From a virus, in the IMG/VR virus record IMGVR_UViG_3300028844_003773, positions 1 through 54,922 of that record: DNA of 54,922 nucleotides. One strand, given 5' to 3'. The position numbers and the translations under genes are program-made. The notes under the pieces are model-generated. The model was not told the DNA's origin and did no database searches. It worked only from the letters and a program-made list of their open reading frames with translations. This document shows, piece after piece, positions 1,081 to 9,623 of this stretch. Numbering within the stretch: the stretch's first letter is position 1; every line of letters starts with the position of its first letter.

Positions 1081-3471
1081 ATGGCAACAAACATTAAAAT
1101 TACAGCACTATCAGATATAACAAGTGCAAACATGACCTACAACGATTTATTAGCCGTTGTAGACATGAACGGGACACCAGAAACCAAGAAATCAACTGTA
1201 CAATTAGCAGGTAATTTGATTCTCGCAGGTGCTGGTGGAAGTAACTTTGTACCGGCCGCAGTTGCAACTCTTGCAGGAGATGTAACAAACGCCGCTCAAC
1301 CAAACATTACTTCAGTAGGAAATCTGACAAGTGCAAACGTCACAGGAAATTTAGATGCAGGCAACGTAAACGCAACTACAGCAGTTGTAGCCGCATACTT
1401 CTCAGGTGATGGAGCAAACTTAACAAATTTACCTGCTGGTACAGCAACTAAAATTACAGACGGAACATCTAATGTTGATATCCCCACAACAGATGGAAAC
1501 GTAACTGTAGGCGTTGGTGGTACAGCAGACGTATTGATCGTAACTAGCACAGGTGCTAATGTAACTGGAACATTAAATGCAACAGGCATTATCACAGGTG
1601 ATGCAGGCGGAATATCAAACGTTGTTTATGCTAATGTAACTGGTACACCAACACTAGGTAATATCTCCCCTCTTAACTTAGACGGCAATGTATCTAATGT
1701 TCTCAGAGGAGACGGAACATTTGCCGCAGATGCAGAATCTACATATAGTGACAGCAATGTTGTTACTCTATTAAATGCATTCGGCTCTAACACAATTACA
1801 ACAACCGGTCTCGTTACTGCTGACGGTGGCGGAATATCAAACGTCCCATATGCAAACGTAACTGGTACACCTACATTAGGCAACATTTCAACTATCGACA
1901 TCGATGGATCTGGATCAAACGTATTATACGGTAACGGAGTTTTTGCTCCTGCGACAAGTCCAGCATTAACTGGAGACGGTTATCAATTATCAAACATTAC
2001 AGGTGCAAACGTTTCTGGAGAAGTATCATTCGCGGCTACTGCTAACGCAGTTGCTGGTGCTAATGTATCTGGAGAAGTCACAAACGCCGCTACAGCAAAT
2101 GCAGTAGCAGGTGCTAATGTAAGTGGTGAAGTCGGATTCTCAGCAGTTTCTAACTCAGTAGCCGGAGCAAATGTCTCCGGTGAAGTTACTTTTGCCGCAA
2201 CAGCAAACGCAGTTGCTTATGCAAATGTTTCAGGTACACCTACTTTAGGTAATATTTCAACAATCGATATTGACGGTGATGCCGCTAATGTCTTATATGG
2301 TAATGGAGTATTTGCGGCCGCAACGAGTCCAGCATTAACTGGAGATGGTTATCAATTATCAAACATTACAGGTGCTAATGTAAGTGGCGAAGTCGGATTT
2401 GCCGCAGTTGCAAACGCAGTTGCTTTGGCAAACGTATCAGGCGCAGGTAACATTGCGTCAATCAACATTGACGGAGCAGCCGGGAACGTACTATATGGTA
2501 ACGGTGTGTTCGCCGCGGCCCCAGGTGGCAGTACATACGGTGATTCAAACGTTGTTACTTTATTAGGTGCATTTAGTGCTAACCCAATTACAACAACTGG
2601 ATTAATCACAGGTGATGGTGGCGGTCTATCTAATATCGCAGGTGCAAACGTAACTGGAACAATCAATACAGCAGTTCTTGCACAAGAAGTAATCAATTCA
2701 GCACAACCAAATATCGGATCTGTTGGTACTTTAACAGCACTAAATGTTAATGATACAATCGTATCAGTAGGCTTGACAGCAAACACAGGCGACATTACAG
2801 TAACAGCAGGCGTATTTGCAGGTGACGGTGGAAGCATTTCTAACGTAGTCGGTGCTAATGTAACAGGTGAAGTTGGATTCTCAGCAGTTGCTAATAGTGT
2901 TGCTATCGCAAACGTATCTGGTGCAGGTAATATTGCAACAGTTAACTTAGACGGTAACACAGCAAATTACTTAGACGGTACAGGTTCATGGGGACCAGTT
3001 ACAGCAACTAGTGCTACAACAGCAGGTACTGTAACAACAGCCGCACAGCCTAACATTACTAGTCTCGGTACTTTAGTAGACTTAACTGTAACAGGAAACA
3101 TTGCAGGTGCAAACATCAATGCAAACACAAACGGATTTGCAATAGGTTATAAAGAAATTCCCCCTGTAGTATTATCAGCAAATGATACAATCGCACTTGA
3201 AGATTCAGGTAAACATTTCAGATCAACAACAGCAGGAAATATTACATTATCAATTCCAACAAACGCAACTGTTGCATTCCCAACAGGAACAGCAATTAGT
3301 ATTGTTGAACAAGCCGCAGGTAACATTCTAGTTAATGCTATCTCTGGTGTAACTCTTTATCAAGCAGGTAATTCAACTGCAGGTAACAGAGTGATTTCAA
3401 CATATGGAGTTGCGACATTAATGAAAGTTGATACTGATACATGGTTTATTAGCGGCACCGGAGTAAGTTAA
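1081..3471 (+). CDS. long repetitive tail fibre protein
   Basis: 796 residues built from repeats: AAQPNITSVGTLT, GDGGGLSNI, ANVSGEV, GNVLYGNGVFA and similar. These are found in tail fibres of T4-like marine phages and recur in the minus-strand fibre cluster at 37-50 kb. A non-repetitive N-terminus (MATNIKITALSDITSANMT) and a C-terminal domain from about residue 685 (GYKEIPPVV... to ...WFISGTGVS) cap it. The last codons (TGVS, stop) and the start of the next gene are part of a 34-bp sequence repeated at the next gene junction. The ATG of the next gene directly follows its stop codon. Role: host recognition, inferred. Confidence 0.75.
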   Translation: MATNIKITALSDITSANMTYNDLLAVVDMNGTPETKKSTVQLAGNLILAGAGGSNFVPAAVATLAGDVTNAAQPNITSVGNLTSANVTGNLDAGNVNATTAVVAAYFSGDGANLTNLPAGTATKITDGTSNVDIPTTDGNVTVGVGGTADVLIVTSTGANVTGTLNATGIITGDAGGISNVVYANVTGTPTLGNISPLNLDGNVSNVLRGDGTFAADAESTYSDSNVVTLLNAFGSNTITTTGLVTADGGGISNVPYANVTGTPTLGNISTIDIDGSGSNVLYGNGVFAPATSPALTGDGYQLSNITGANVSGEVSFAATANAVAGANVSGEVTNAATANAVAGANVSGEVGFSAVSNSVAGANVSGEVTFAATANAVAYANVSGTPTLGNISTIDIDGDAANVLYGNGVFAAATSPALTGDGYQLSNITGANVSGEVGFAAVANAVALANVSGAGNIASINIDGAAGNVLYGNGVFAAAPGGSTYGDSNVVTLLGAFSANPITTTGLITGDGGGLSNIAGANVTGTINTAVLAQEVINSAQPNIGSVGTLTALNVNDTIVSVGLTANTGDITVTAGVFAGDGGSISNVVGANVTGEVGFSAVANSVAIANVSGAGNIATVNLDGNTANYLDGTGSWGPVTATSATTAGTVTTAAQPNITSLGTLVDLTVTGNIAGANINANTNGFAIGYKEIPPVVLSANDTIALEDSGKHFRSTTAGNITLSIPTNATVAFPTGTAISIVEQAAGNILVNAISGVTLYQAGNSTAGNRVISTYGVATLMKVDTDTWFISGTGVS

Positions 3472-7979: not shown

Positions 7980-8056
7980 TGGTGGGCCCACTAGGACTTG
8001 AACCTAGACTCTACCGATTATGAGTCGGTTGCATTAACCAGTTATGCTATAGGCCC
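7980..8056 (-). tRNA. tRNA with CAT anticodon (Met or Ile2)
   Basis: 77 nt including encoded CCA. Acceptor GGGCCTA/TGGGCCC, anticodon loop CTCATAA, T arm CTAGG-TTCAAGT-CCTAG. A CAT anticodon may be elongator Met or, after lysidine modification, Ile reading AUA; the sequence alone does not decide. Confidence 0.9.
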
Positions 8057-8138
8057 AAATGGGGAGGGGCAGAGTGACAGGGTTTGCATGTCTCAAGCAT
8101 CCGATTGAGGCTAGTGTTGTTCTAGCCGTACCCCAATT
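8057..8138 (-). ncRNA. structured 82-nt spacer RNA between two tRNAs
   Basis: This segment lies exactly between the CCA of tRNA-Arg and the 5' end of the CAT tRNA. It has a closing stem (AAATGGGG with CCCCAATTT, one bulge) and three internal hairpins: GGCTAG/CTAGCC with a 7-base loop, TCAA/TTGA, and GACA/TGTC. None of the loops is a T-loop or a normal 7-base anticodon loop, so it is not a canonical tRNA. T4 tRNA clusters carry two stable RNAs of unknown function; this may be an analogue. Confidence 0.5.
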
Positions 8139-8214
8139 TGGCCCGCCCTCCAGGATTCGAACCTGGGACCTACTGCTTAGAAGGCAGTTGTTCTATCCAC
8201 TGAACTAAGAGCGG
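8139..8214 (-). tRNA. tRNA-Arg (TCT)
   Basis: 76 nt including CCA; acceptor CCGCTCT/AGGGCGG, anticodon stem ACTGC/GCAGT with loop CTTCTAA, T arm with TTCGAAT. Reads AGA, favoured in AT-rich genomes. Confidence 0.93.
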
Positions 8215-8242
8215 TAAAACTTTTCCTTATGTTGATTGATCT

Positions 8243-8319
8243 TGGCGCGCCTGGAAGGATTCGAACCTCCGACTTCCTGGTTCGTAGCCAGGTACTCTAT
8301 CCAACTGAGTTACAGGCGC
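8243..8319 (-). tRNA. tRNA-Arg (ACG)
   Basis: 77 nt including CCA; acceptor GCGCCTG/CAGGCGC, anticodon stem CCTGG/CCAGG with loop CTACGAA, T arm with TTCGAAT. Its 5' end overlaps the last 10 nt of the upstream WYL_2-like coding sequence. Confidence 0.93.
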
Positions 8320-8624
8320 GGGCTAGTATCGACTGATTTGATGTTCCTTATAAGAAAACTTCTCCAACCTTCTGCTTTTGTATCAAAGACAGCAAGACTA
8401 TTTTCAGGGTTTTTCATTACCCTTTCTTTCTTTTCTTCACCTTCTTTGACTACAACTTTAGGTAAGTTGTCTGGATGCAATGTACATGTCATTACACGTT
8501 CATCACCGTTGATCTTAGTAAAAGTAACTGTTACGATATCCTCAACGAGTACATCTTTAACTTGCGATCTAAAACTGTTCCATTCTTCATCAGTCCAATT
8601 TTGATCTGGGGTCATTATTGTCAT
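8310..8624 (-). CDS. WYL_2/DUF2693-like SH3-barrel protein
   Basis: 104 residues with the pattern of the phage WYL_2 (Sm/SH3-like) family: VTVTFTKINGDERVMTCTLHPDNLP followed by a charged segment and ENSLAVFDTKAEGWRSFLIRNI. Such proteins may sense a ligand or bind nucleic acid; no function is established. An alternative start three codons in is possible. The stop codon lies inside the tRNA-Arg(ACG) gene, so the mRNA would be cut when the tRNA is processed. Confidence 0.7.
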   Translation of the reverse strand: MTIMTPDQNWTDEEWNSFRSQVKDVLVEDIVTVTFTKINGDERVMTCTLHPDNLPKVVVKEGEEKKERVMKNPENSLAVFDTKAEGWRSFLIRNIKSVDTSPRL

Positions 8625-8626
8625 AA

Positions 8627-8770
8627 TTATGCCTGTTGTTTGTTTTGCTTTTCGATTAAATCACACATTTGATAATATGCGATGAGTTCTTCCCAACTAA
8701 AAAAGTCTTTTCTGATATGACACCAAAATCTACCCTTGTTAGTTGTTTTCGGTTTTTTTACTGCTTCCAT
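8627..8770 (-). CDS. small protein, 47 aa
   Basis: MEAVKKPKTTNKGRFWCHIRKDFFSWEELIAYYQMCDLIEKQ... SD AAGGAA, 5 nt before the ATG; the stop is 2 nt upstream of the next gene. Its leader is the structured RNA at 8786-8901. No known family; Trp/Tyr-rich helical core. Confidence 0.55.
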   Translation of the reverse strand: MEAVKKPKTTNKGRFWCHIRKDFFSWEELIAYYQMCDLIEKQNKQQA

Positions 8771-8785
8771 CTGTTCCTTAAAAAG

Positions 8786-8901
8786 TGAGTCTCAAACAGT
8801 GTAAATCTTAAGACTTACCTAGCCCTTCAACGGGCGCCTGACGAGACTCAAAGTGTTCGACACAATCCTTAGCAATCATTAGCAATTTAACGTTTTGTGT
8901 C
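8786..8901 (-). ncRNA. structured leader RNA (three-way junction)
   Basis: On the minus strand TGAGTCTC... pairs with GAGACTCA (8850-8843 with 8793-8786, 8 bp), enclosing a GCCC/GGGC hairpin (8835-8822) and a GTAAGTC-TTAA-GATTTAC hairpin (8818-8801). Upstream, GACACAA (8901-8895) can pair with TTGTGTC (8865-8859), which competes with a GTGT-CGA-ACAC hairpin (8863-8853). The element lies 15 nt before the AAGGAACAG ribosome-binding site of the small gene at 8770. The layout resembles a cis-regulatory leader, but no known riboswitch core was recognised. Confidence 0.5.
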
Positions 8902-8912
8902 TTATGTGATAC

Positions 8913-8918
8913 ATTATA
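8913..8918 (-). promoter_or_regulatory. possible -10 box (TATAAT)
   Basis: A perfect TATAAT with only a poor -35 match (TTCATT at 18 bp). A start near 8906 would place the first stem of the leader RNA at the very 5' end of the transcript. Confidence 0.4.
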
Positions 8919-8922
8919 CTAC

Positions 8923-9513
8923 CTAATGACTCCTAAATGAAGCATTTTGGGTAATTTGTTTCTGAGAACCATTGCCATTAATCATGCCCATCTTTCCACC
9001 TTGTGATACAATCCTATCAACCATATCTTCAAAATCGATCGGCTTCAAGTTTGTATGCTCGACAGAGACACACAAGAATCTAGGATCAATCTTGTCACCT
9101 TGCATGACTCTTCCACCATGTAAGTGACCGTGTACGTTGCACCCAAATCTACCCAATTGATCAACGTGAATCGGTATATGAGTAAACACTAACCCGTTAG
9201 TCACGTGACAGCCTCTGACATCTTTGAATACATCTACGTACTTGTTCAACTTTAACTGATCATGGTTACCCTTGACAAGTATTTTGATTCCGTTCATTTG
9301 CTTAACTTTGTTAAGCCCTCGAACATTAAAGGCAATGTCTCCTAACATGTAGACTTTATCGGTCGGCTTTACAATTTCATTGTGTGCTTGAACCATAGCA
9401 TCTTCCATATCCTCAACGGTATCGAACGGACGACATTTTGTGCCATCCGGATTTGTAAAATTGATCACGTTCTTGTGACCAAAATGCAAATCTGCTGTGA
9501 AAAATTGAGACAT
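8923..9513 (-). CDS. calcineurin-like metallophosphoesterase
   Basis: 196 residues with all five metal-site blocks in order: ADLHFGH (near residue 10), MLGDIAF (about 57), VKGNHD (about 80), FTHIPIH (about 110) and NVHGHLHGG (about 127). Closest to the small YfcE/phage phosphoesterase group; substrate (phosphodiester or protein phosphate) not predictable. AGG-type ribosome-binding site and a consensus early promoter upstream (9595-9623) point to early expression. Confidence 0.85.
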   Translation of the reverse strand: MSQFFTADLHFGHKNVINFTNPDGTKCRPFDTVEDMEDAMVQAHNEIVKPTDKVYMLGDIAFNVRGLNKVKQMNGIKILVKGNHDQLKLNKYVDVFKDVRGCHVTNGLVFTHIPIHVDQLGRFGCNVHGHLHGGRVMQGDKIDPRFLCVSVEHTNLKPIDFEDMVDRIVSQGGKMGMINGNGSQKQITQNASFRSH

Positions 9514-9594: not shown

Positions 9595-9623
9595 ATTATA
9601 CGGCATTTTGACCCAAATGTCAA
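9595..9623 (-). promoter_or_regulatory. sigma70-type early promoter
   Basis: TTGACA (9623-9618), 17-bp spacer, TATAAT (9600-9595). The spacer starts TTTGGGTCAAA, an imperfect palindrome resembling those at 6.26 and 6.84 kb. Confidence 0.88.

Follow-up and report, generated by a model that had tools for sequence, protein, structure and literature searches.

Does the minus strand of the 54,922-nt phage DNA analyzed here, which we call the window, encode a structured control RNA between a predicted promoter and a 47-aa open reading frame (ORF), and if so, what might this RNA do? From position 8918 to 8768, the strand presents in order a TATAAT box, a hairpin (7-bp stem, 29-nt loop), a three-way junction, a run of U residues, a ribosome-binding site (RBS), and the start of the 47-aa ORF, such that promoter, leader, RBS, and gene are collinear. 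A first-pass annotation had proposed that this region forms a three-way-junction leader with a competing hairpin.

Organization of the leader in the window

The predicted promoter is sigma70-like and occupies positions 8913 to 8941 (minus strand), with the -35 element TTCATT at 8941 to 8936, a 17-nt spacer, and the -10 element TATAAT at 8918 to 8913. This -10 box, already noted in the first-pass annotation, adjoins the structured leader. The promoter matches the consensus at nine of 12 positions, with TATAAT being exact and the -35 element matching at only three of six, and the start of transcription is predicted near 8907 to 8905 (minus strand). A perfect sigma70 consensus promoter (TTGACA-17-TATAAT) lies farther upstream at 9595 to 9623 (minus strand), ahead of a phosphoesterase gene, and may read on into the leader. 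Given this promoter and the weak -35 element of the nearer one, the leader may in addition lie within a longer mRNA.

The upstream hairpin, which we term module A, spans positions 8859 to 8901 (minus strand). Its 7-bp stem pairs 8901–8895 with 8865–8859, as had been described, and its loop (8894–8866) carries the tandem repeat TTAGCAAT at plus-strand positions 8869–8876 and 8879–8886, where it had likewise been located. This repeat is the core of the conserved loop of module A. The three-way junction, termed module B, spans 8786 to 8850 (minus strand) and is composed of P1 (8850–8842/8794–8786), P1b (8840–8838/8799–8797), P2 (8835–8832/8825–8822), and P3 (8818–8812/8807–8801). A closing stem around two hairpins had been recognized previously and is present, although its length is 9 bp rather than 8 bp in the minimum free energy (MFE) fold. 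The leader fold exceeds chance: the MFE of the whole leader (z -2.64) was equalled by two of 200 shuffles, and that of the junction alone (z -3.28) by one of 200.

The remaining element of the earlier proposal, a local GTGT/ACAC hairpin that is mutually exclusive with the module A stem, can be drawn in the window (4 bp), but its four pairs are never all kept among seven relatives (zero of seven, by eye). Because this competing hairpin is not conserved, the proposed switch is unsupported. The observation itself is confirmed and its first interpretation is partly supported, in that the leader is a structured RNA with compensatory changes; the switch hairpin did not hold, and the independence of module A and the two-module nature of the leader had been missed.

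A U-rich run (UUUUU, 8780 to 8784, minus strand; alignment read by eye) follows P1, and direct reading of the sequence places the RBS AAGGAA of the 47-aa ORF at 8774 to 8779 (minus strand), as claimed. The gene order downstream is also as first reported. The 47-aa ORF (8627 to 8770, minus strand), which has no family match, is followed by a gene for a WYL_2 (Sm-like SH3 beta-barrel) protein (8310 to 8624, minus strand; PF10902, E 6e-11; phrog_1086), and then by tRNA-Arg(acg), tRNA-Arg(tct), a tRNA-like stretch, and tRNA-Met (7980 to 8319, minus strand), which are untranslated genes of the same operon. The end of the WYL_2 ORF overlaps the tRNA-Arg(acg) gene by 10 nt (8310 to 8319, minus strand).

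No Rfam 15 family hits the leader, which agrees with the earlier remark that it does not seem to match known riboswitch cores. The whole window yields only tRNAs above the gathering threshold, and the sole match to positions 8700 to 9000 at E≤10 is to a snoRNA, meaningless and on the opposite strand. Nine other module A loci likewise gave no family match. We found no description of the motif in the literature searched, a statement limited to those searches.

Comparative evidence for two RNA modules

Two protein searches gathered seven phage contigs that carry the same leader and that, with the window, constitute the window family. TATAA is common to all eight members in the alignment. All eight also carry tRNA-Arg(acg) and tRNA-Arg(tct) downstream, as well as WYL_2, which follows directly in L006, after a 218-aa ORF in L007, and after a small ORF in the others. 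This small ORF is similar to the 47-aa ORF in most relatives and is absent from L006 and L007. In L007, about 2 kb separates the phosphoesterase gene from the leader, and therefore promoter and leader are not tied to the upstream gene.

The evidence for module B comes from alignment A4 (eight rows, seven distinct), in which 98.7% of 158 cells are paired and both sides have changed in eight of 24 pairs, compared with only 23.7% to 44.7% pairing in slid registers used as a control. P1 is fully paired in L006 and L007 despite its different sequence, and compensatory changes are also found in P2 and P3. The 3-bp P1b is weaker, with a U-U mismatch in two rows. A U-rich run stands behind P1 in all eight members, at a gap of one to a few nucleotides (by eye). 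When applied to 37 sources, model R2, which was built from the sequences of the window and the seven relatives themselves, hit only the window and these relatives, and a tight pattern scan for module B also matched only the window's relatives. Module B, a second module separate from module A, is so far confined to the window family.

Beyond the family, many contigs keep the module A loop within stems of unrelated sequence. The motif consists of the loop NCGN(N)AAAUUGCUA-NNN-AUUGCUA-N-GG borne on a stem whose sequence is free; the fixed letters of the loop are partly imposed by the search patterns. A scan with the tandem-repeat pattern matched 28 contigs. Loosening four pattern positions added a single record, L077, which model R1 scored as a nonmember, and when the spacer was left free from N1 to N7, all accepted members showed the NNNA spacing. 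At E≤0.001, R1 recovered 27 of 41 sources and 14 of 49 sources, or 41 records including the window, 18 of which had served to build R1. One of the 41, L158, is doubtful, as it resembles coding sequence. With L158 excluded, leader sequence divides the set into approximately 19 groups.

For the covariation counts, coding-like pattern hits (for example, L032, L043, L045, L054, L056, L059, L062, L070, L077, and L120) were dropped beforehand by eye or by R1 score, and L035 and L158 were left out of the alignments. Alignment A2 holds 18 rows; alignment A6 holds 26 of the 41 records found by R1 at E≤0.001, near-duplicates having been removed, and its tested columns comprise nine stem pairs and one loop pair. 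In A6, 86.0% of 258 cells are paired (26 rows) versus 45.7% in shuffles, and 111 cells have changed on both sides versus 37.4 in shuffles, with slid registers giving 38.8% to 47.1% pairing. The loop pair (columns 15/35) is held in 19 of 26 rows (UA 12, AU 4, UG 2, GU 1) and broken in seven, a hint of structure within the loop.

A contiguous stem of at least 7 bp is present in 15 of 20 leaders versus 0.4% of random positions, and in 12 of 19 group representatives versus 1.0% of random positions. By a strict count, five representatives (L035, L041, L121, L130, and L153) have fewer than five contiguous pairs; L041, L121, and L130 fold into stems of another register or with interruptions, and the folds of L035 and L153 are weak. 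As judged by these pairing statistics, module A is shown to be a conserved, phage-borne RNA hairpin. Compensatory changes in homologues, which the first-pass annotation had named as the check for a structured cis-leader, are thus seen in both modules and, for the leader as a whole, in the seven relatives. On this comparative evidence, the leader is a real, evolutionarily conserved, two-part folded RNA.

Structure following module A varies among lineages or is absent. In L036, L037, L040, L053, and L060, module A is enclosed by an outer stem (GUAAGUGUAAU with AUUACACUUAC), beyond which the contigs diverge sharply. In L034, a 16-bp long-range stem (AUUGUUGGAUAGCACU and its complement) closing about 70 nt lies behind module A at approximately 2112 to 2215 (plus strand), and a terminator-like hairpin with seven T residues lies between this stem and the first gene.

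Genomic setting of module A

A sigma70-like promoter with at least nine of 12 consensus matches is found upstream in 15 of the first 17 leaders, eight of which are the window family and so are not independent, versus 7.9% of random windows. In these 15 leaders the predicted -10 element ends 15 to 26 nt before the loop, which would place the hairpin within a few bases of the predicted transcript start and at the head of a transcription unit. Among later records only two of 12 have such a promoter, L127 (12/12) and L134 (11/12). The 5′-terminal position, as predicted from these promoters, is therefore shown for only part of the set.

Long ORFs downstream are mostly on the strand of the motif, and the genes behind module A are unrelated: WYL_2, an AAA-type ATPase, genes ahead of terminase, and unknown small proteins. 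We considered WYL_2 as a general partner and rejected it, as PF10902 was found in six of 22 records (five above the cut-off) and was close to the motif in no records other than the window family and L132. The leader of L132 (9893 to 9939, minus strand) is a module A leader outside the window family, and its WYL_2 gene is the third ORF, about 650 nt downstream.

Each of the 33 records searched whole (20 of 20 and 13 of 13), which may be fragments, holds exactly one strong copy of module A. On this count we rejected an element repeated within one genome, although genomes represented by fragments may hold more copies. Shared ORFs group 19 representatives into five clusters (at least two shared ORFs), one of which is large and includes the window. 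By this gene-sharing measure, module A extends beyond a single phage lineage, although many of its carriers are distantly related to one another. The capsid of the window is closest to those of Vibrio phage 2.275.O and Pseudomonas phage PA5oct, and a search of these two phages, one Pelagibacter phage, and one Synechococcus phage for module A gave zero of four below E 1. An exact-pattern scan of genome_contigs matched a single contig, that of phage record L066 in a MAG, and R1 applied to 385 genomes of that MAG's class gave one of 385, again the contig of L066. A host-derived riboswitch was accordingly set aside, there being no independent bacterial copy in these scans.

Possible functions of the leader

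Because the downstream genes are unrelated, the action of module A should not be specific to one gene product, which speaks against a pathway-specific riboswitch and in favor of a general factor. Its recurrence in many phages before unrelated genes suggests that this part of the leader is probably a control element not yet catalogued.

The explanation that we favor, although only tentatively, is that module A is a nascent-RNA element bound by a conserved factor and acting like the put RNAs of phage HK022, with module B serving as a second control point. PMC9378689 describes HK022 putL as a nascent RNA that is found close behind its promoter and that binds the beta′ zinc-binding domain. By analogy, once the module A loop emerges from RNA polymerase, a conserved trans factor would bind it, the likeliest candidate being polymerase itself or an elongation or RNA-binding factor. 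The bound loop would then alter the later fate of the transcript, chiefly by allowing read-through of pauses or terminators. Between the leader and the RBS, module B would provide a family-specific control point. In the window family, the leader might guard the untranslated tRNA genes from termination, a setting in which read-through would be helpful.

According to PMC9378689, put is a phage noncoding RNA of the nascent transcript that is independent of the genes that follow and, in the case of putL, stands directly behind an early promoter. Module A would resemble it in these respects, with a position directly behind a promoter being predicted for only part of its set. Unlike module A, put is about 70 nt long, forms two irregular stem-loops, and is present in two copies in HK022, whereas module A has one stem, a conserved 28- to 29-nt loop, and one strong copy per record. 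Module A does not conform to the two-stem-loop, ~70-nt architecture, and by structure it is not a put RNA. A blastn search (E≤10) of the leader against 50,697 phage records, a collection in which a put-bearing record is not assured, gave no match.

We count in favor of the put-like model the stem covariation together with the conserved loop, the adjoining promoter, the unrelated genes, the single strong copy per record, and the lack of an independent bacterial copy. Against it we count the promoter in only two of 12 later records, the weak -35 element and the perfect promoter farther upstream in the window, the restriction of module B to one family, the lack of a sequence or structural match to put, and the lack of enrichment of intrinsic terminators downstream (five of 19 leaders versus 50 of 285 background windows in a crude scan, which missed one terminator-like hairpin seen by eye in L031). 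A bolder form of this model is speculative and rather unlikely. It holds that module A represents a second, unrelated class of nascent RNA that alters the host transcription machinery on emergence, carried as a portable leader cassette in large myophages and other phages, and allowing them to read through untranslated, termination-prone regions, tRNA clusters among them, without an antiterminator protein.

The predicted position of the hairpin at the 5′ end in many members would also suit a site recognized by an RNA-binding protein of phage or host, or a 5′-end stabilizer, acting on mRNA decay or translation instead of on polymerase. The conserved tandem heptamer placed in the loop and the proximity of an RBS and ATG in L044, L047, L052, and L064 also speak for such a role. 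However, a plain stabilizing hairpin would need no conserved loop, and the first gene is far away elsewhere (~350 nt in L034), and we consider this role possible but somewhat unlikely. Small-molecule sensing by either module or by the two together, in which the expression platform would be formed by P1 of module B and the U-run, draws on the aptamer-like shape and covariation of module B and on the U-rich run that lies after P1 beside the RBS in all eight family members (by eye). A riboswitch is nonetheless decidedly unlikely given that Rfam offers no match, that the genes behind module A are unrelated and nonmetabolic, that the only alternative hairpin proposed is not conserved, and that the genome scans gave no host copies.

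We also weighed whether the leader is, or yields, a small RNA that acts in trans by base pairing between its loop and a conserved target. The strongest complementarity found was with the 5′ part of 23S rRNA: all 17 of 17 loops form their best duplex with Escherichia coli 23S at ~30 to 60, and five of five loops tried on a second 23S pair best at that same site. The E. coli value of the window loop was reached by one of 400 dinucleotide shuffles and zero of 400 simple shuffles, and that of an L048-type loop on the second 23S by three of 150 and zero of 150. However, on E. coli 23S the L048-type loops stay close to background (-21.7 versus a shuffled mean of -19.4, sd 1.8), the 17 loops are not independent because they share the fixed letters, and ACGU, which is part of the match, is lost in later members. 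For an antisense RNA it would also be odd that the G-U-rich pairing never improves and that the invariant A residues are unpaired, and nothing was found for pairing of the loop with 16S or 5S. We therefore treat the 23S pairing as a weak lead of little weight, and a trans-acting role would come as a surprise. A role at the DNA level is more improbable still. Direct repeats with a 10-bp period behind a promoter, in a single strong copy per record, could form an operator or a replication origin with an R-loop-forming transcript, but an operator would need no covarying flanking arms, and across 16 contigs or stretches GC skew did not switch consistently at the element.

Among other structured RNAs, PMC2864571 describes manA, wcaG, and PhotoRC-II (RF01745, RF01761, and RF01717) from marine samples and cyanophages, with manA in potential 5′ untranslated regions. 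These motifs accompany metabolic or photosynthetic genes, whereas module A does not, and neither they nor any other Rfam family matched the window leader or the nine other module A loci. Like attenuators and riboswitches with a terminator-like platform, module B is branched and followed by a U-rich run and then the RBS; unlike them, the leader has no conserved alternative hairpin, and there is no enrichment of terminator-like sites behind module A.

The leader contributes two strongly covarying, defined RNA motifs, represented by models R1 and R2, for which no Rfam 15 family gives a match. Module A is the more interesting of the two. Its portability across unrelated operons and phages is atypical of a riboswitch dedicated to one gene and suggests a general factor. 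Module A could mark operon heads in phage metagenomes, and it is short enough for direct reporter testing.

Species 1 and 2 of phage T4 are reportedly stable RNAs of the phage tRNA cluster. Like them, module A in the window is a phage noncoding RNA near tRNA genes in a large myophage; unlike them, it stands at the 5′ end of the unit, not within the cluster. ARAGORN found no tRNA at the L047, L034, and L044 loci. The tRNA cluster of the window includes, between tRNA-Arg(tct) and tRNA-Met, an unannotated 82-nt stretch (8057 to 8138, minus strand) that was called by neither ARAGORN nor Rfam and whose fold is not unusual relative to shuffles (z -1.29). It has a cloverleaf-like fold ending in CCCCA and is near-identical in five of the eight family members (the window, L002, L003, L004, and L006).
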